The position numbers and the translations under genes were made by a program. Under the pieces are notes generated by a model, which did not search any database, had not been told where the DNA came from, and saw nothing but the letters and a program-made list of their open reading frames with translations. From contig CAKZYJ010000494.1 of the NCBI GenBank assembly GCA_937884755.1, positions 1 through 64,000 of the forward strand: a DNA stretch of 64,000 nt. The letters run 5' to 3'. Source of the DNA: an uncultured Flammeovirgaceae bacterium (lineage in GTDB: Bacteria; Bacteroidota; Bacteroidia; Cytophagales; Cyclobacteriaceae). Each line of letters starts with the position of its first letter. Position 1 is the first letter of the stretch. This document shows positions 28,025-38,242 of the stretch, in pieces.

Positions 28025-28220
28025 ATATAATAATACAATTTTTTAATGGTAAAATATTAAAAATATAAACTTTCCTATCCCAGCTAAGCTCTAAAAATTG
28101 TGTTTAGCAAACCCACTGCAATTATATAAGACTAGTCTGACAGATAATGATATGAAAAGGAAAAAGTACTTGGTCATGAACTCTCTGTTAGAATCATGAG
28201 ATGACTCTGGCAAGGAGTGA

Positions 28221-28258
28221 AAACAAAAAAGAAGAACTGCATAACTTGCGTTCTTCTT
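28221..28258 (-). terminator. Rho-independent terminator of the receptor/Sia-like operon
   Basis: Read on the minus strand, AAGAAGAAC-GCA and TGC-A-GTTCTTCTT form a 12-bp stem with one bulge around loop AGTTA. TTTTGTTTTC follows. It lies about 85 nt downstream of the siaC-like stop. Confidence 0.8.
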
Positions 28259-28343: not shown

Positions 28344-28751
28344 CTAAATAGCTTCGGGAATAGGGATTAACTTGATTTCAAGTTGAGTATCCTCAATAAA
28401 GTCTTCAGCCTCTTCCAAAATATCATCATCTTCTTCAGGATAGTACCAGTTTATCGTCAAGTCGCCCCCTCGCTCTTGATACTCCTTAAGCACAAGTAAG
28501 ATTTCCAGTATACCTTTAGAAGAACTGGTATTAAAGTAGGTCATCTTAAAATCGAAGGTAAGCGGCCGCCCTGTTTCGGCATACGCTCGCAGCCAGTTAC
28601 ATAAACGCTCGTAAAACTCCCAGGTATTTTCCAGATACGATTCTCCTTCTAATAGACAGTAGCCTTTGGTAGCATCAAAATGTACAGTAGGGGTAAAGAA
28701 TGTATCCTTCTGTCCTTGTATCTCTAATATTTCAGGTTTCAATTCGCTCAT
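28344..28751 (-). CDS. SiaC-family (DUF1987) regulatory phosphoprotein
   Basis: SiaC-type proteins are the phosphorylation targets of a SiaA phosphatase / SiaB kinase switch; in Pseudomonas aeruginosa SiaC activates a diguanylate cyclase. The 135-residue protein has the DUF1987 pattern: TPTVHFDATKGYCLLEGESY, then ENTWEFYERLCNWL, then LTFDFKMTYFNTSSSKGI. The T75-S78 patch of the last motif is where the phosphoacceptor would be expected, by analogy to anti-sigma-antagonist folds. It ends the operon, 18 nt after the SiaB-like gene, and the terminator follows. No diguanylate cyclase is encoded nearby, so the downstream partner is unknown. Confidence 0.88.
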   Translation of the reverse strand: MSELKPEILEIQGQKDTFFTPTVHFDATKGYCLLEGESYLENTWEFYERLCNWLRAYAETGRPLTFDFKMTYFNTSSSKGILEILLVLKEYQERGGDLTINWYYPEEDDDILEEAEDFIEDTQLEIKLIPIPEAI

Positions 28752-28769
28752 ACTTTTGTCTGATAGTAG

Positions 28770-29315
28770 TTACTCTTTATCAATAGTTACAAATAAAGAG
28801 AAAAATGAATGTCGTTCGTCAATGGTATATACTTCAATATCCAACGGATTGTTAGATAAGATAGCGGCCTGTACCAAGCCTATACCCGCTCCTTTACTTT
28901 GATCAGACTGCGGTTGGCGCCGCTGGATTCTCTTTAAACGCCGCAGTTCTTCACGATCAAGCGAGTTTATTGTATTGCAACTGTCTGCTAATCGGCCTAC
29001 GTCTGTAGTATAAACTATATTGCCACAAGAGAAAATATAGCTATTCGCCGTTTCGCTTAGCTGTAAAATACCAACACTTTCGGTACGTCCGGCGTAGCGG
29101 ATTTTCTCGGCCGAGTAAAAAAGTATATTCTGGGCCAATTCAATAAAGATAGAGAATATCTTCCGGCTGGCTTGAGGGAAATTATCTAACTGCCCTCGTA
29201 TATCCTTACTAATCTCTGCCATAATATTAGGGGTAACCGGCCCCTTATAAGAGATCAACAAGTTCTCGTCTTGCAGTATCATTAAGTGATCCATTGTTTT
29301 TCTATTGTGGCTCAT
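28770..29315 (-). CDS. SiaB-family (DUF6272) protein kinase
   Basis: This 181-residue protein resembles SiaB, a GHKL-fold serine/threonine kinase that phosphorylates SiaC. The ATP-site N box is IELAQNILFYSAE (E59, N63). The glycine-rich lid is KGAGIGLVQAA near residue 142. There is no histidine-kinase H box, which fits an anti-sigma-type kinase. It lies 22 nt after the TPR-SpoIIE phosphatase gene and 18 nt before the SiaC-like gene, so the three are almost certainly co-translated as one switch. It might instead be annotated as DUF6272; the context makes the SiaB role likely. Confidence 0.85.
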   Translation of the reverse strand: MSHNRKTMDHLMILQDENLLISYKGPVTPNIMAEISKDIRGQLDNFPQASRKIFSIFIELAQNILFYSAEKIRYAGRTESVGILQLSETANSYIFSCGNIVYTTDVGRLADSCNTINSLDREELRRLKRIQRRQPQSDQSKGAGIGLVQAAILSNNPLDIEVYTIDERHSFFSLFVTIDKE

Positions 29316-29337
29316 TATAATCTTATGATTGAGTTGT

Positions 29338-31992
29338 TTATACTTTTATACCAATTAAGTTTATATCGTCTCGCTGCTCGGTTGATTGCTGATGGCTTTC
29401 TAAAGCCTCTATAAATTTAGTTTCTTGTTCCTCAATAGGGAACTGATACCATTCTTGAATTAAGTTCTTCAGTCGCCGTGACCCAAAACGCTTTCGTTCG
29501 GAATTTGATTGATCTACAAATCCGTCGGTTGTGAGATACAGTGTATCGCCCGGACTGAGATCTAACTGCTGCTCTAACTCAAATTTTTCTCTCTGAATAC
29601 TTCCTACTGTTTTTCTCACGCCTTTCAACACTTCTAAAGATCCTTGACGTACTGCATACAGAGTATGCTTAGCACCCGCATAATGAAGACGTACTGATTG
29701 ATCTGAGTTAGTATCCAATGCACAAATGCCAATATCCATGCCATCCTGGATACTATTATCGTTATCTCTTAATCGCTTTTTTACCTGCCGATTCAGATAA
29801 TCCAGTATTTCGGCAGGGTCTAAAAGCTTCTTATCACGAATTGCTTCATCCATCATATTATAGGCTATCAGCGAAACCAAAGCCCCTGGTACGCCGTGTC
29901 CGGTACAATCTACTACTGATACAATCCGGCGATTTCCATGTTCCGACATCCAGTAAAAATCTCCAGATACAACATCTTTAGGACGAAATATTACAAAGCT
30001 CTGCGGGAATATTTTTTTACTTTCTCTTTTACTAGGAAGTATAGAGAATTGAATTCGCTTAGCATACTGTAGGCTTTCCTGGGTTTTATAATTCTCAATT
30101 TCTAGTATCTGCTTTTGTTTTTCTAATTCTTCTTGAGTTACCTCTAGCTTCATGACACTTGTCTTAAGCATCTGCTCGCTCGCTTTCAAGTACGCATTTT
30201 GTTCCTGAATCTTTACTTGTTGTTCTTGTAACTTTCTATTATCCTGTCTTTTTTGAACAAAACTGTAGGAAAACACACCAATAATAGCCAAGAACGAGGT
30301 AATGATTCCATACCCGTACTTCCGTAAAGTTGCTTCCTGTTTTAGCCTTTGCTTCTGAAGTTTTCTTTCTGCTTCTAATAAAGCAATGGCTTTTTCTTGT
30401 TTTTCTTGTTCTGATTGATTTTGCTCTAGCTCCAGGGTTTGACGCTCCTGTAAACGCTGTAACTCCAGCAACTCTCGTTTCTGTTTTTCCGCTAGCAATT
30501 CTTGTTGAGCAAATGCTAACTGCTGCTCAGTTCGTTCTTTAGCTAACTGCTGATTTAACAGTTCTGCCTGCTGTAAGGCTTGACTCTTTCTTAGGAGTAT
30601 CAGTTCTTTTTCTTTTAGCTTCAGTGTACTCTCTTGGCGCTCTCGCTCTAGACTTAACTGCTCTTGCTCAATAATTAATGATTTTATATATTCTTCTTTC
30701 GCATCAATTCTCTCTTGTATGGTAAGAAGTTTTTTCCGCTCTGCCTTTCTCTGTGCATTTATCCTCCCTCTAATATCCCGATAGCTCTGCTGGTATATTT
30801 CCGCCTGTTCTTCGTTTTTTTCTTCCTGATAGATTATACTTACCAGTTTGTAACTTTCTACTAACTCATGGTTAGCATTCTTGGTAACGGCTAATTTTAT
30901 TGCTTTGTCAGCCATTTTTAAAGCTTGAGCGTAATTCTGGCTCATATAGGCATTAGAGGCTAAGTAGTTGAGCAAGTTAGCTTGCCCCACTATATCCCCG
31001 GATTGTTTTCTTATATCTAATGCTTCATTATACGCATCTTTGGCTCGTGAGAAAAAACCTAGATTAGTATAGGCTACACCAAGGTTAGTAAGCATAGAAA
31101 CCCGCATATCCGGATTTTCAATAATATCGCCGGGTAGTGCTAACGCTCGCTGAAAATAATCGATAGCAGCCTTCAGATTATTATTTCTTTTTTGTAAGAA
31201 CCCTAAGTTGTTCAGAGTTTGTAGGAGCTTGAGGGTATCTCTTTGTTGCAGGCTAATTTTTTGAACCTGCTCTAAGTATTGAATAGCACCACTAATATTA
31301 TTTACCTGCTTGTTTATGTTTGCTAGGGCTTCGTAGATCGCTATGGTAGAAGATATGTCCCTTTGAGATTGGTACAGCTTCGCTAATTGAAGATACGTGT
31401 CCTCTGCCTCTTCGTATTCTTCCAAAGCAAAGTAGCTCTGGGCTAATTTCTGCAATACGCCAGATACGTTAGGAATCTCTTTGTTTAAACGCCGCTTACC
31501 CGTTAAATATACTTGATAGTACTGAATTGCCTTTTGATAAGCCCGACTATCGTAATAGTGATTCCCTATATCACGCTTTACATCGAGAACATTATCTGGC
31601 TGTTGGGCCTTCTCGAAAGCCATGATTGCCCATAACATATGTCTCAAAGACTCTTCTGGCCTCCGTAGCTTCTTGTTGATAATGGCAATCTCATACAAAA
31701 GCGACGCTTCTTCGCTTACTGACTTCTTCGTTCTTGCTACTTGTAGTTTTTGTTCAGCAACCCCTAGTTCTTTCTTTAGTTGGCTTTGGTTGATTGGTCT
31801 AACTTGGGAGTTAATTACCGTGTCCTGGCTCAACATTGATCGGGATGGGGTTGTAGCAGTTTGGGCCACACTCATTAAACTCATCCACAATAGCAGTACA
31901 ATAACAACGAATACCTTTATCACAAACGATAAGGGGAGCCTATCAATTACTGGTAGTTGTAACTTTGCTATATGGTATCGCCCTCTAATCAT
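29338..31992 (-). CDS. TPR-repeat SpoIIE-type PP2C phosphatase (SiaA-like sensor)
   Basis: An 884-residue membrane protein predicted to dephosphorylate the SiaC-like protein. Residues 23-44 form a hydrophobic signal or anchor (VFVVIVLLLWMSLMSVAQ). Residues about 80-430 are tandem TPRs (for example AIQYYQVYLTGKRRLNKE and AIDYFQRALALPGD). Residues about 430-560 are a long charged coiled coil. A second transmembrane helix (YGIITSFLAIIGVFSYSF) precedes another coiled coil. The C-terminal SpoIIE/PP2C domain has DVVSGDFYWM, VVDCTGHGVPGAL, LYLTTDGFVDQSN and QRDDINLIGI, which supply the metal-binding aspartates. The TPR region would therefore be periplasmic. Its ATG directly abuts the TAG stop of the TonB-dependent receptor gene, indicating translational coupling. 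Confidence 0.88.
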   Translation of the reverse strand: MIRGRYHIAKLQLPVIDRLPLSFVIKVFVVIVLLLWMSLMSVAQTATTPSRSMLSQDTVINSQVRPINQSQLKKELGVAEQKLQVARTKKSVSEEASLLYEIAIINKKLRRPEESLRHMLWAIMAFEKAQQPDNVLDVKRDIGNHYYDSRAYQKAIQYYQVYLTGKRRLNKEIPNVSGVLQKLAQSYFALEEYEEAEDTYLQLAKLYQSQRDISSTIAIYEALANINKQVNNISGAIQYLEQVQKISLQQRDTLKLLQTLNNLGFLQKRNNNLKAAIDYFQRALALPGDIIENPDMRVSMLTNLGVAYTNLGFFSRAKDAYNEALDIRKQSGDIVGQANLLNYLASNAYMSQNYAQALKMADKAIKLAVTKNANHELVESYKLVSIIYQEEKNEEQAEIYQQSYRDIRGRINAQRKAERKKLLTIQERIDAKEEYIKSLIIEQEQLSLERERQESTLKLKEKELILLRKSQALQQAELLNQQLAKERTEQQLAFAQQELLAEKQKRELLELQRLQERQTLELEQNQSEQEKQEKAIALLEAERKLQKQRLKQEATLRKYGYGIITSFLAIIGVFSYSFVQKRQDNRKLQEQQVKIQEQNAYLKASEQMLKTSVMKLEVTQEELEKQKQILEIENYKTQESLQYAKRIQFSILPSKRESKKIFPQSFVIFRPKDVVSGDFYWMSEHGNRRIVSVVDCTGHGVPGALVSLIAYNMMDEAIRDKKLLDPAEILDYLNRQVKKRLRDNDNSIQDGMDIGICALDTNSDQSVRLHYAGAKHTLYAVRQGSLEVLKGVRKTVGSIQREKFELEQQLDLSPGDTLYLTTDGFVDQSNSERKRFGSRRLKNLIQEWYQFPIEEQETKFIEALESHQQSTEQRDDINLIGIKV

Positions 31993-33981
31993 CTAAAATC
32001 TCAGATTCAGTCCTAGCCAATACATACCACGCGTTTGATCCCCAAAAGCGTATTCTAAATTTCGGTTGTCTAGCAGGTTCTGACTGCTAAAAAATACTGA
32101 GTGGTCCTCCCATATTTGATAAGATAACTTGCCACTCAAATTAAACTTAGAGGGGATCTGAAAGAAATGTGGCCTTTCGGTGTACTCATGCTGAGTATAG
32201 TAATAAAGTGATGCAAAAGCCTGTAGCTTCCCAAAAAAGGCTGTATATCTTCCAGTAATACCGCCAAACAGACTTGGTAAGGTACCAGGCCACTCAAAAC
32301 CATTATCAGATTCAGATAAAATCTTGGTTACGAATCCTGATAAAAGTAATCTACTAACCTGCCAGTCGATTTTTCCTGATATACCGGAACGGGCATAATA
32401 AGAAGTATTTATCCATTGTGTGCTATCTATCTCATTAGAAGGTTGATAATTAAAGTAGGTTATTTCTGTATTAACGTTTTTCGTAATTTGATAACGATAT
32501 TTTGCTTCGTAGGAAATCATTGCTTGAGGTTGTACAGATGCTTGAGGGTCAACAGTAGAAAGGTAATCGGGGTGACCAGGAGCATGTTCACCTAACGAAA
32601 TCGCAGCACTAATTTGATGTGAAGGATATAATTTGAGCAGAGCACTTAATTGATGGTTAATTAGCAGTTGTTTAGCCTCAGGATAATAATCACCCCGGTT
32701 AGCCATAATAACATTAAACCGATTCTGAAACAGATAAAATTGCTGAGACAGATTGATACTGTACCGTTGTCCTAATAATGAAGAGTACTGTAATTGGCTG
32801 TCTCTATCAAGAGAAACACTATCAGCCTCATTCTCCTTGTACTGATAGTTTAACGCTTCCGTTCCTAAACCGAATCTATAGCTTTTCCAATCACGAGCGT
32901 ATTCTATTCTTCCAAAGTATCGTGCTGCGTTTTCCCACAAGCGGTTGTCATACTCACCGTAACTAAAGGATTCCCGCTGATAAGAAGCGTATACAGTAAT
33001 TGGTTTCCAAGACGTTCGCAGAGACGCCCAATTAGAGTTAGATAGCCTATTGGTTAAAGCTATCTGCTGAATCCTTTGGTGTAGTGCCTGAGATTCTGAA
33101 TTTTGCATTCCTCCTTCTAACTGAATCCCAATCTCATTATTCCATTGGTAATTAGCGTTTATGTAGGCACCCGAATTTCGTAAAGCACCTTTAGCTATAG
33201 GATTGGTATTCTTTGCATCGATTTGATAAAAAAGTAAAGAATCACTGGGCACATAACGACGTTGACTGAAGATGTAATATTCATCCTGAAATCGAGAAAG
33301 TTGATTATAAAAACCAGACACTTTAGCTCGAAAACGTCCTCCCTGATTGAAGCTAATACTGCCTTGATAAGCTTGATTATCTCGTAACCCAACCCGGCCA
33401 TTTGCTTGCGTTCGCAGCCCTATTCCATTATCAGATTTAGTAACAATATTGATAATACCGTCCGTTGCTTCCGGACCATACCAGGCTCCTTGAGAAAAAC
33501 GTATAACTTCAATACGTTTGATATCCTGCAGCGCTATTGGGAGCGCTTCCCACCATACAGTTTGCTCTAAAAAGTTATAGTACGGAACCTCATTGATCAT
33601 GAGTAAGATTGCATTCCGATTATCTAGCGTCTCATTCGGACGCGATGTCCCCCGTAGATGCAGCGTGTAATTTCCGTTCGTACTTTGACGAACAAAAACA
33701 TCAGGCGATAAGCGTAAAGCCTCTAATAAGGTAGTGGCACCTGATATTTTTATTTCTTCGTGAGTAATAAGTGTATTACTTATTGCAGCCTCATCTACAC
33801 CTTGATTGCTCTTAGTAAGGCTATAAATTATCTGATTTTCTTCCTGCTCAGACTGTAATTCCATTCCCAGAATATCATCGGCTACCGTCAGGGTATAAGA
33901 AGTCGAGTCTGACGTCTGGGCAGTGGTTTTCAGTACAATGAAAACGAAGGCTAATACTGTTAATACTCCTTTAATCTTCAT
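31993..33981 (-). CDS. TonB-dependent receptor, first gene of the Sia-like operon
   Basis: A 662-residue outer-membrane receptor. The signal peptide ends near TTAQ (about residue 22). The plug domain includes ISGATTLLEALRLSPDVFV, HLRGTSRPNE, AILLMINEVPYY and GPEATDGIINIVTK, the last being the plug's conserved C-terminal strand. The rest is a 22-strand type beta-barrel, rich in alternating aromatic strands and ending in YWLGLNLRF, a standard outer-membrane C-terminal Phe. It lacks the CarboxypepD-like N-terminal domain and SusD partner of polysaccharide receptors, so it is not a SusC. It may take up a small ligand or act as a surface input for the phosphatase encoded next, which starts one base after its stop. 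Confidence 0.88.
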   Translation of the reverse strand: MKIKGVLTVLAFVFIVLKTTAQTSDSTSYTLTVADDILGMELQSEQEENQIIYSLTKSNQGVDEAAISNTLITHEEIKISGATTLLEALRLSPDVFVRQSTNGNYTLHLRGTSRPNETLDNRNAILLMINEVPYYNFLEQTVWWEALPIALQDIKRIEVIRFSQGAWYGPEATDGIINIVTKSDNGIGLRTQANGRVGLRDNQAYQGSISFNQGGRFRAKVSGFYNQLSRFQDEYYIFSQRRYVPSDSLLFYQIDAKNTNPIAKGALRNSGAYINANYQWNNEIGIQLEGGMQNSESQALHQRIQQIALTNRLSNSNWASLRTSWKPITVYASYQRESFSYGEYDNRLWENAARYFGRIEYARDWKSYRFGLGTEALNYQYKENEADSVSLDRDSQLQYSSLLGQRYSINLSQQFYLFQNRFNVIMANRGDYYPEAKQLLINHQLSALLKLYPSHQISAAISLGEHAPGHPDYLSTVDPQASVQPQAMISYEAKYRYQITKNVNTEITYFNYQPSNEIDSTQWINTSYYARSGISGKIDWQVSRLLLSGFVTKILSESDNGFEWPGTLPSLFGGITGRYTAFFGKLQAFASLYYYTQHEYTERPHFFQIPSKFNLSGKLSYQIWEDHSVFFSSQNLLDNRNLEYAFGDQTRGMYWLGLNLRF

Positions 33982-34152: not shown

Positions 34153-36621
34153 TTAATCCGGCTGGATATTGATCCAGTCTATCCGAAGCAGTTCTTCGTC
34201 TCCTGTACCCCCAGTGAATTCTAGTTGGATGTCGTGATATCCAGATGAAAGTGACGTAAGAGTTACTGACACGGTTTGCCAGTTATCCCATCCACCCGTA
34301 GGCGGTACCGTTACCATTCTTATAAAAGCACCTCCATCTTTTATCACAATAAACTTGTTATCTGCATTGTTGTTCGATACTCTAAACTGGAACTCGTAAT
34401 CGCCGCTGCTTGATACATTCACTTCATAATTCACTGTATTGCCCTCATTTATAGAACCAAGATAGTAGTCCCCCGATGCTGTTGGCGAGTAAACCCGCTC
34501 TACTCCGTCACTTTGACTGTAGCTTTCTACCTCGAGAGTACCCGATGCCTCCTGAACGGGGACATTATCTGTTGTCACAGAGATAGCATTCGAGTATGCT
34601 GAAGGGCTTCCTTCCACCACAGCACGCACTCGATAATAATAAGTTGTAGACGGCTGTAAGCTAGCAATCATTGAATAAGTTGCTTCTACCGACACATTTT
34701 CGTAGCCAGGTACGATGGTAGTAAATCCAGCATCCGTTGCTACGTCTAACAAATAGTGAGAGGCATCTTCAACCAGACTCCAGCTTGCATAGATATCATA
34801 TGCATTGTTAGTTATTGGCTGTTGTGCCACCGGAGTACCTATTGTACTTGTTTGTACCGATATGATTGCTGAATAGTCAGAGGCAGTATTAGTATTATGA
34901 GCCCTAACCCGGCTATAGTAAACAGTATTCTCATTTAAACCTTCGACTAATAGGGATGTACCGTTCGTTACAGCTTCCTCGTAACCGCTAACTATACTGA
35001 GGAATTGATTATCCGTAGCTATATCAACAGTATAGTAGGTAGCGTCCGATGTCACATCCCAAGAAATAATAAACTCTGTGTAGGTGACATTAGAGGCAGT
35101 AATGTTAGTGGGAATATCTAAGGCAGTAGGTGATTTCGCTAATTGCTGATTAGCAATATTTGAGTATGACGAATAGTTAGTACCTTCTTTAGCTCGCACA
35201 CGATAGTAATACATTATATCTGCTTTCATATCCTGTACGTTATACAATGTATCTGTAATATCCTGTATAGTCTTGGTAATAGTTGAGAAATTAGGGTCAG
35301 TGCTTACTTCCAGCAAATAATTTTCGGCTTCTTCTACTGAAGACCATGATGCTGTAAACGAAGTACTACTTATATCTGAGGCTGCATGCAATACGGGAGC
35401 AGATAATAAAGTAGTAGTTACTTGAATAGTATTTGATGGATTAGAATCTGAATTCAGACCTGAGGTGGTTAAACGATAATAGTAGGTGGTATTTTGTTGA
35501 AGTCCGGTTACTTCTACTGACGTATCGTTTAGCATAAGCCCTTCATATCCACTCACAAACTGAGTAAAATACTCATCTGCTGCTACATCGAGTCTGTAGC
35601 TTTCTGCGGAAGGTACTGTCTGCCAGTTGGCTTGAAAACTGTTGCGCTGGATATTACTACCTGCTAATGCTACCGGCACATCCAAAGGCTGGGTAGTAAC
35701 AGTACCTTTATCTGAGTATTCGGAAAATGATTTTTCGTTATTTGCACGTACCCGGAAGTAATAAGTAGTATTAGCATTTAGGTTATCTAACAGAAACTGT
35801 GTACCACTGACAATTTCGTTCTGCACTAAAAAGGACTGAGCTTCTAAAAATAAAGGGTCAGTAGTAACTTCTATGGTGTAATCTACCGCACCTGTTACTG
35901 GTTGCCAACTGAAAGCAAACTCATTTTGTGTTACATTTCGTGTTTCTTCAATTACTGGTTTAGTTAACTCAGTAGTGATTAAGTGAATAGTATTTGAGAA
36001 ACCGGATGTGATATCTTCATTCCTTGCCAGAACTCGGTAGAAATAGTCCTGATCTACTTTTAAATCGTCTTTTATTATAACTGAAGTGTCTTTAGTAACA
36101 ATACGTTGAACGGAAGATGAATTAGTAAACTCAATATCAGAAGCTACCTCAACCTCGTAAATTTCAGCCTCGTCTATTTTCTGCCATTTCGCGGTAAATC
36201 GGGTCGGGCCTATCTCTGAAGCACTTAATGCCAAAGGGGTGGGCATACCTAGGGTATTCACTGCTACAATATCCGAAAATCTAGTTTGCTCACCAGTGCT
36301 AAGTTGAGCGATTAGACGATAATAATAAGTGTGGGCTACTTCTAAATTTTGTACTACTAGAAAAGTATCTTCAACCTCTACTGGAGTTTCATTAATTAGA
36401 AATTCTTCGTCAAACGACCCATCCATGGCTACTTCAACAATATAGCTTTTTGCTCCCAACAATGGTTTCCATGTAGCAGTAAAGCCAGTAGTCGTAATCT
36501 TTTCCGGCTGAACCGAAATAGGAATTGGATCTATAAACTCCTGAATTTCTGGAGTACAACCTAAGAAAAAGATAAGCTGAACAATAATGACAAATAGTAT
36601 TGATTTATAAATTCTATTCAT
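34153..36621 (-). CDS. FN3-repeat lipoprotein with C-terminal carbohydrate-binding-like domain
   Basis: An 822-residue surface-type lipoprotein. The lipobox is FLGC (Cys22). Seven fibronectin type III-like repeats of about 95 residues follow, each with a F-x-x-x-W strand (FTATWKPL, FTAKWQKI, FAFSWQPV, FQANWQTV, FTASWSSV, FIISWDVT, IYASWSLV) and a TYYYRVRA-like strand. The last 130 residues (LEVESYSQSDGV, GDYYLGSINEGNTVNYEV, GGWDNWQTVSVTL, LRIDWINIQ) look like a CBM6/CBM35-type carbohydrate-binding domain. No catalytic domain is seen, so it is probably a surface adhesin or glycan-capture protein. It lies 171 bp upstream of the receptor gene on the same strand, and co-regulation is possible but unproven. 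The gene is AT-richer than the catabolic genes. Confidence 0.83.
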   Translation of the reverse strand: MNRIYKSILFVIIVQLIFFLGCTPEIQEFIDPIPISVQPEKITTTGFTATWKPLLGAKSYIVEVAMDGSFDEEFLINETPVEVEDTFLVVQNLEVAHTYYYRLIAQLSTGEQTRFSDIVAVNTLGMPTPLALSASEIGPTRFTAKWQKIDEAEIYEVEVASDIEFTNSSSVQRIVTKDTSVIIKDDLKVDQDYFYRVLARNEDITSGFSNTIHLITTELTKPVIEETRNVTQNEFAFSWQPVTGAVDYTIEVTTDPLFLEAQSFLVQNEIVSGTQFLLDNLNANTTYYFRVRANNEKSFSEYSDKGTVTTQPLDVPVALAGSNIQRNSFQANWQTVPSAESYRLDVAADEYFTQFVSGYEGLMLNDTSVEVTGLQQNTTYYYRLTTSGLNSDSNPSNTIQVTTTLLSAPVLHAASDISSTSFTASWSSVEEAENYLLEVSTDPNFSTITKTIQDITDTLYNVQDMKADIMYYYRVRAKEGTNYSSYSNIANQQLAKSPTALDIPTNITASNVTYTEFIISWDVTSDATYYTVDIATDNQFLSIVSGYEEAVTNGTSLLVEGLNENTVYYSRVRAHNTNTASDYSAIISVQTSTIGTPVAQQPITNNAYDIYASWSLVEDASHYLLDVATDAGFTTIVPGYENVSVEATYSMIASLQPSTTYYYRVRAVVEGSPSAYSNAISVTTDNVPVQEASGTLEVESYSQSDGVERVYSPTASGDYYLGSINEGNTVNYEVNVSSSGDYEFQFRVSNNNADNKFIVIKDGGAFIRMVTVPPTGGWDNWQTVSVTLTSLSSGYHDIQLEFTGGTGDEELLRIDWINIQPD

Positions 36622-37087: not shown

Positions 37088-38242
37088 ATGGTTCCGAATG
37101 AATTCTCTTCTGAGAAAAAAACGACTAACGAACCCGATTACGCTATCGTAAAGGAGATACTCGGCGCATGTACTGATATAGTACTTATATTTGATGACAA
37201 CTTAAACGTTTGTTTTGTAAATAAATATGCACTAGATCTACTTAATTACGGTGAAGACGATTTATTAGGACAACATATCACTCAGATATTCCCTAAGCGG
37301 CAGCATCAGATGCTTGAATCAATCATTGAAAGTGTAGAAGACGGGCTGAAAGTGCAGGATCGCCGATCATATCTGAATGTAAGAGGAAAAAAAAATATCT
37401 CAGTAACTCTTTCTTTTTCAATGACATGTCGAGAACATTCTTTCAAGTATGTTCTAATTGCCAAAGACCAAAGACAGTACACTAAAGCTACAGACGCACT
37501 AAAACAGAAAAACGAAGAACTCAAAACGTTAATCTACCGTGCTTCACATGATTTAAAGGGTCCTCTAGCCTCGGTTAAAGGACTTTTTAACTTACTAAAA
37601 GATGAACCCGACGATACCGAAACACTGAAATACTATCTGGGACTAATTGAAAAAAGTGTTGATAAGTTAGAAGATACTTTGTCGGGATTACTCGAGGTAG
37701 GTCTTTCTTCCAAGAAAAACTTAGAGTACTCTCCGGTGAATGTCCGTACTTGCCTCGAGGAAATTATTGAGCGTTTTGAGAATTACCCAGGTCGCGAAGA
37801 TGTCATTATTCACCTTACAGCCAACACTGATCTGCTTATTCACACCGAAAAGAAGATATTTCAATCTATATTTCAGAATCTTATTGAAAATAGCATCAAG
37901 TATCGTAAGCCCAATCAAAACGATGCCGTGACAAAGATATCGGCCCGAAGGTTCCAATACGGAATTAAAATTAAGGTAAAAGATAACGGGCTAGGCATGG
38001 ATCGGAACTTGCAAAAGCGAGCCTTTGATATGTTTTACCGGGGTCACGAACATTCTGAAGGAAGCGGGCTTGGATTATTCATTGTAAAGAACAATGCAGA
38101 AAAGCTCGGTGGTGAGATCAGCCTTAAAACTAGTCTGAACATGGGAACTGAAATTTGGGTATACATACCAGACAAAGAGCAAATGCAAATGGTCAATGAT
38201 AAATCGGTAATATCAGAAGAGAGCACCGAGATGCTGATCTGA
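37088..38242 (+). CDS. PAS-domain sensor histidine kinase
   Basis: A 384-residue soluble kinase with no transmembrane segments. A PAS domain spans about residues 19-130 (DIVLIFDDNLNVCFVNKYAL, YGEDDLLGQHITQIFP). A short coiled coil leads to the H box RASHDLKGPLASVKGL, with His154 as the phosphorylation site. The HATPase_c domain has an N box (FQNLIENSIKYRKP), a G1 box (VKDNGLGMD) and a G2 box (GSGLGLFIVKNNAEKLGG). There is no receiver domain and no response regulator gene adjacent, so it is an orphan. The ASHDLKGPL type of H box is common in Cytophagales PAS kinases. Confidence 0.93.
   Translation: MVPNEFSSEKKTTNEPDYAIVKEILGACTDIVLIFDDNLNVCFVNKYALDLLNYGEDDLLGQHITQIFPKRQHQMLESIIESVEDGLKVQDRRSYLNVRGKKNISVTLSFSMTCREHSFKYVLIAKDQRQYTKATDALKQKNEELKTLIYRASHDLKGPLASVKGLFNLLKDEPDDTETLKYYLGLIEKSVDKLEDTLSGLLEVGLSSKKNLEYSPVNVRTCLEEIIERFENYPGREDVIIHLTANTDLLIHTEKKIFQSIFQNLIENSIKYRKPNQNDAVTKISARRFQYGIKIKVKDNGLGMDRNLQKRAFDMFYRGHEHSEGSGLGLFIVKNNAEKLGGEISLKTSLNMGTEIWVYIPDKEQMQMVNDKSVISEESTEMLI

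Follow-up and report, generated by a model that had tools for sequence, protein, structure and literature searches.

A five-gene operon on the minus strand (36621 to 28344) of the window, the 64,000-nt stretch of Cyclobacteriaceae DNA analysed here, looks like a new route by which an outside signal could pass through both membranes. Its genes encode, in order, a lipoprotein with FN3 and CBM6 domains, a TonB-dependent receptor (TBDT), a phosphatase in which a signal peptide, TPRs, a stalk, a transmembrane (TM) helix and a SpoIIE domain follow one another, a SiaB-family kinase and a SiaC-family protein. The reading that we somewhat favour is trans-envelope signalling, in which the surface lipoprotein and the receptor would act on the periplasmic TPR-stalk, and this on the PP2C phosphatase and the phosphorylation of SiaC. 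Host family, order and class refer below to the Cyclobacteriaceae, Cytophagales and Bacteroidia, the lineage of the source genome. The features of the locus are as follows.

34153..36621, minus strand: gene 1, lipoprotein (lipobox LGC with acidic residues after the Cys, about six FN3 repeats, C-terminal CBM6)
31993..33981, minus strand: gene 2, TonB-dependent receptor (signal peptide, disordered N-terminal tail, plug, ~22-strand barrel)
29338..31992, minus strand: gene 3, TPR-SpoIIE phosphatase (Pfam TPR and SpoIIE, 1.6e-23; structural model; match to 6k4e)
28770..29315, minus strand: gene 4, SiaB-family (HATPase-like; DUF6272) protein kinase (NF038262, 6kko, E-L-A-Q-N box)
28344..28751, minus strand: gene 5, SiaC-family phosphoprotein (PF09345, 4.8e-39; 6kko)
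28219..28258, minus strand: Rho-independent terminator (hairpin AAGAAGAAC...GTTCTTCTT and a U-run)
37088..38242, plus strand: divergent PAS-HisKA-HATPase histidine kinase (Pfam; membership of the system uncertain)

The original prediction had described four genes, from the receptor to the SiaC-like protein, packed on one strand, spaced 0, 22 and 18 nt apart and closed by a terminator. All of this was borne out, including the direct contact of the receptor stop with the phosphatase start (junction TTT TAG ATG ATT), and the terminator has a minimum free energy of -12.6 kcal/mol (z of -3.57 relative to shuffled sequences). The four-gene unit itself had to be extended, as the operon starts one gene earlier, with the FN3 lipoprotein. 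No Bacteroidetes-type promoter was found on the minus strand 5′ of gene 1. The divergent PAS histidine kinase is highly conserved in closer relatives and stands beside the operon at seven of the fetched loci (L036-L040, L042, L043); the fetched Ohtaekwangia, Fulvivirga and G049-type loci do not have it. Three relatives (L039, L040, L042) carry a solitary response-regulator receiver gene just 3′ of SiaC.

We examined the conservation of this arrangement in 149 genomes of the host family, where separate searches for the receptor and for the phosphatase gave adjoining top matches. Linkage of the receptor to the switch in relatives had been set beforehand as a condition for the proposal, and the receptor was found immediately upstream of the phosphatase, on the same strand, in every one of the 11 full-length phosphatase orthologues that were fetched from family genomes (gap of -27 to +6 nt), with SiaB and SiaC downstream in each (11/11). 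The lipoprotein precedes the receptor at 10 of these 11 loci, the eleventh being split between contigs, and a twelfth receptor-phosphatase locus (L070, in genome G002) is interrupted by a contig end. The arrangement of receptor and SiaB/SiaC also occurs in Fulvivirga kasyanovii, F. marina and an Ohtaekwangia-like genome, the named carriers further include Catalimonadaceae JC749, and the gene order is retained even where receptor identity drops to 21%. Since the same order is found in all 11 family orthologues, the arrangement is beyond chance, and this census rules out a chance neighbourhood or an accident of a single species. The receptor is not a fixture of every SiaABC-type locus: two SiaBC loci of the same genome (C203 and C40) have other sensors and no receptor, and it is present at only 6 of the 80 named SiaC loci.

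Searched with the phosphatase profile, several other families of the order yielded full-length relatives, and among the full-length matches listed we scored the presence of a TBDT within 1.1 kb. An adjacent TBDT accompanies 38 of the 77 order-wide TPR-SpoIIE proteins outside the family, compared to 2 of 80 SpoIIE proteins that do not have these TPRs, with the same profiles used for both sets; the Fisher p value of this contrast (1.4e-12) is only a guide, because related sequences are not independent. The linkage takes several forms: at L168 and L169 the phosphatase gene comes first, followed by those for the lipoprotein and the receptor, at L166, L167, L199 and L208 the receptor is transcribed divergently from the phosphatase, and at L163 an IS transposase separates the two genes. 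None of the 38 receptor-linked phosphatases outside the family has SiaB or SiaC in cis, and SiaC is encoded elsewhere in all 28 order genomes tested, in 3 to 44 copies each. With this count, and with three proteins that have SiaC and no receptor, SiaB/SiaC was rejected as the receptor's conserved partner across the order. The succession of receptor, SpoIIE protein, SiaB and SiaC stands in full within the family; across the order, half of the phosphatases are linked to a receptor, and the receptor pair occurs without SiaB/SiaC. In summary, the widely conserved unit consists of the receptor and the TPR-SpoIIE phosphatase, and SiaB/SiaC in cis belong to one lineage only.

When 91 phosphatases were placed on a tree, a fully supported clade of 15 united the family loci with Fulvivirga and one f19 locus, and all 15 are receptor-linked. 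The receptor-linkage label is clustered on this tree (0 of 500 shuffles as low), yet linkage has arisen or disappeared on many occasions. Strong TPR-SpoIIE matches outside the order were confined, in a class-wide sample, to family f62 (two genomes). Among TPR-SpoIIE genes with no recognised TBDT, those at L228 and L230 are preceded by a gene for a secreted protein of 783-791 aa (L228:2067-4442, L230:2883-5234), which may be a different outer-membrane partner, and at L177 and L178 the divergent neighbour is a histidine kinase in the receptor's stead.

The receptor and the phosphatase also diverge together. Over 51 pairs, receptor distances correlate with those of the TPR region (r = 0.71), the stalk (0.63) and the catalytic domain (0.59). 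When paralogues were swapped within the 11 genomes that hold at least two pairs, none of 2000 swaps reached the observed 0.71 (mean 0.60), indicating that each receptor diverges with its own adjacent phosphatase. Such paired divergence is predicted by a partnership, and inheritance as one unit yields it as well.

The lipoprotein of gene 1 matches the Pfam families fn3 (1.5e-43) and CBM_6 (7.8e-25). Among its homologues, fn3 is present in 13 of 13 and CBM6 in three, and the C-terminal CBM6 is carried by the lipoprotein in the source genus. Many homologues have acidic residues behind the lipobox Cys, which we take to be a hint of surface exposure in Bacteroidota lipoproteins. The lipoprotein and receptor genes are 171 nt apart here and 167-171 nt apart across the source genus; in most relatives the two genes either overlap by 13-47 nt at the receptor start or are separated by no more than ~70 nt, and at four loci of family f15 the spacing is 245-857 nt.

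The receptor itself matches Plug (7.8e-11), and its AF2 model is a plugged, BtuB-like barrel of ~22 strands (TMt up to 0.80). Plug is the sole Pfam match in each of 13 receptor homologues, none of which has an STN signalling domain by Pfam, and only ~42 residues precede the plug. This fits the earlier view that signalling here is unlike the FecR/sigma type. The first ~42 mature residues are disordered and contain a recurrent motif, Y-x-L-x-V-x-x-D-I-L, which, judging from its sequence, could be a TPR ligand or a TonB box. Other TBDTs of the same broad class adjoin a gene for a YfiR/HmsC-like periplasmic protein (DUF4154; L062:5271-7985, L063:5310-8101, L068:5693-8287, L074:6432-9059, L075:4079-6546), with histidine kinases too at L063, L074 and L075; this neighbourhood is possibly a second link between TBDTs and signalling.

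The phosphatase consists of a signal peptide, a TPR superhelix (residues ~61-390), a stalk helix (~394-544), a TM helix (561-579), a cytoplasmic helix and the PP2C/SpoIIE domain (~660-884). An N-terminal hydrophobic segment is found in 85 of 88 relatives and a TM helix ahead of the catalytic domain in all 88. Because the TPR region is placed between the signal peptide and a single TM helix, it is predicted to be periplasmic, as had been proposed for this SiaA-like protein; the charges flanking the TM helix are insufficient alone to decide its orientation. The stalk is continuous in the model from 394 to 544, its far half being of low confidence (pLDDT < 50 at 506-565). As a single helix, 150 residues would be ~22 nm long, which is comparable to the width of the periplasm. 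Stalks of receptor-linked phosphatases measure 165-172 residues (10-90% range) and those of unlinked ones 165-176. As receptor-less TPR-SpoIIE proteins have similar stalks, the stalk and the TPR region are not specific to receptor partners, and their length was discarded as a marker of partnership, the medians of core TPR and stalk in linked versus unlinked proteins being only two residues apart. Structurally, the TPR part resembles peptide-binding TPRs, such as those of LGN and the Rap/NprR peptide sensors. The nearest solved structure to the phosphatase is the PP2C domain of SiaA (6k4e, E 6e-45 over 598-882, TMt 0.84), and the catalytic, metal-binding Asp residues of the PP2C domain (D678, D695, D753, D823, D827, D875 and D876) are invariant. 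An AlphaFold model of a receptor-phosphatase fusion, with the TAG stop read as Gln, folded both halves (pTM 0.47); its output gave no interface score.

The last two genes encode the switch. The kinase scores 147.8 bits with NF038262 (cut-off 85), matches SiaB in 6kko (E 2e-15) and keeps the E-x-x-Q-N box as E-L-A-Q-N. The SiaC-family protein matches 6kko as well (E 1.7e-18), with YFNTSS aligned to YLNTSS; its T75 occupies the aligned position of the phosphosite T68 in Pseudomonas SiaC, and N74 and T75 are invariant. Going by these matches, the system appears to work like the SiaABC switch, and two of its proteins are genuine members of the SiaB and SiaC families. The P. aeruginosa switch relies on the phosphorylation of T68 by SiaB and its reversal by SiaA, and it is the unphosphorylated form of SiaC that activates the cyclase SiaD (PMC7647112, PMC8457831); the SiaC fold is STAS-related, and DUF1987 proteins have been suggested to be general modulators of adjacent proteins (PMC8457831). 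SiaC-family genes occur in other settings too. The genomes G193 and G245 (order f15) show a striking expansion to 42 and 44 of them, and in L113-L129, mostly from rumen and gut Bacteroidales, SiaB-SiaC-SiaB-SiaC-SiaC genes are arrayed in tandem, and the opposite strand often carries a SpoIIE gene. At L001 (C377 of the same genome as our operon), L049, L055 and L066, which represent several genera, SiaC lies apart from SiaB and SpoIIE and adjoins, as judged by eye only, 6-carboxytetrahydropterin synthase-like and GTP cyclohydrolase-like genes.

With SiaA-, SiaB- and SiaC-like parts and a conserved phosphosite, the locus might be taken for a standard SiaABC-D module whose SiaC activates a diguanylate cyclase encoded elsewhere. 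We consider this extremely improbable, as the SiaA, SiaB and SiaC proteins stay below the P. aeruginosa equivalog cut-offs (NF038263, 208.1 of 700 bits; NF038264, 89 of 225; NF038265, 87.9 of 150) and a GGDEF domain was found in none of the 12 locus-bearing genomes, compared to 8 of 14 control genomes. The original prediction had noted no diguanylate cyclase nearby, and this now holds genome-wide. Across the 149 family genomes, GGDEF is present in only six (absent from 143) and SiaC in 100. Hence, the Pseudomonas SiaD output is excluded in the 12 carriers, and the output must differ; for canonical GGDEF cyclases, a cyclase output is ruled out in the assemblies tested. The system is not the P. 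aeruginosa SiaABCD module.

The main rival to trans-envelope signalling is that the genes share their regulation while the proteins make no contact. In that case, the lipoprotein and receptor would serve as a pair in uptake or adhesion, and the phosphatase switch would be co-encoded so that one stimulus makes both; the TPRs would sense another periplasmic cue (e.g., a cell-wall fragment or a peptide), or use of the imported substrate would be under the control of the switch. Operons of co-directional, overlapping genes would produce the same linkage and co-divergence, and the resemblance to LGN and Rap/NprR, as well as the many TPR-SpoIIE homologues that have no adjacent receptor, speak in its favour. 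We nevertheless regard it as rather unlikely, given that the linkage survives changed order and divergent transcription, that receptor divergence is closer to that of the TPR region than to that of the catalytic domain, and that a constant long stalk would put the TPRs near the outer membrane. The same anatomy permits the reverse direction, in which the phosphatase line would act from inside on the gating or assembly of the receptor or lipoprotein and SiaB/SiaC would form the input side, and the occurrence of the receptor-phosphatase pair outside the family without SiaB/SiaC in cis agrees with this. Such a direction seems to us quite improbable, since the catalytic side is accompanied by a kinase and a substrate of its own and since, to our knowledge, the known SpoIIE, RsbU and SiaA phosphatases with membrane sensor parts carry signals in, not out.

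In trans-envelope signalling, the reading that we prefer, the FN3 lipoprotein (here also with CBM6) and the TonB-dependent barrel would respond to a ligand from outside, which is probably a glycan or an adhesion target. The TPR superhelix, borne on a stalk whose ~150-170 residues suffice to extend as far as the outer membrane, would read the state of the receptor, perhaps via its disordered N-terminal tail, and this reading would alter the activity of the cytoplasmic PP2C/SpoIIE domain. The latter would remove the phosphate placed by SiaB on T75 of SiaC, and dephosphorylated SiaC would bind a target other than a diguanylate cyclase.

Compared to known systems, the operon is closest to SiaABC(D) of P. 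aeruginosa (PMC7647112, PMC8457831), with which it shares a PP2C/SpoIIE phosphatase, a SiaB-type kinase and a SiaC-type substrate in the operon order A-B-C, the phosphosite Thr and NTS surface, and the nearest solved structures for all three proteins. It differs in its sensor, in which a long stalk carries a TPR superhelix in the periplasm (the SiaA model matches residues 620-883 only), in being headed by the FN3 lipoprotein and outer-membrane receptor, and in the absence of SiaD and of any GGDEF domain from the genome. New here are the lipoprotein with the outer-membrane receptor, the sensor made of TPRs and a stalk, and the lack of a cyclase. Like the pairs of TBDT and surface lipoprotein (the Bacteroides B12 TBDT, 8bmx; SusCD), it has a lipoprotein gene adjoining that of the TBDT and a BtuB-like barrel, but an FN3 array takes the place of a SusD/BtuG-like lipoprotein, and the pair is coupled to a protein phosphatase. 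As in FecA/FecR/sigma signalling, a TBDT would be the first to receive the outside signal and an inner-membrane protein has a periplasmic part; here, however, the receptor has no STN, the five genes include no FecR or sigma gene, and the inner-membrane partner is a PP2C phosphatase. The RsbU/SpoIIE partner-switching phosphatases likewise have a PP2C-type phosphatase that acts on a small substrate, which here, as far as sequence tells, would be a SiaC (DUF1987) protein, and the TPR-stalk sensor would be coupled to the outer membrane. Among the open-access papers searched, we found none uniting these parts.

We tentatively propose that TBDT-coupled TPR-stalk-PP2C phosphatases may form a general signalling class of the Cytophagales, in which receptors, often with an FN3 lipoprotein, each have their own phosphatase and feed a shared SiaC pool with non-cyclase targets. 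If true, this class would be a TBDT signal route distinct from FecR/sigma. There are few known ways for a TonB-dependent receptor to report inside the cell, and the receptor-phosphatase pairing would add one. It would also give an input to the SiaC proteins, which are abundant in Bacteroidota genomes without GGDEF cyclases, and their output can then be sought. The cultured carriers Fulvivirga kasyanovii and F. marina make receptor-phosphatase signalling testable.
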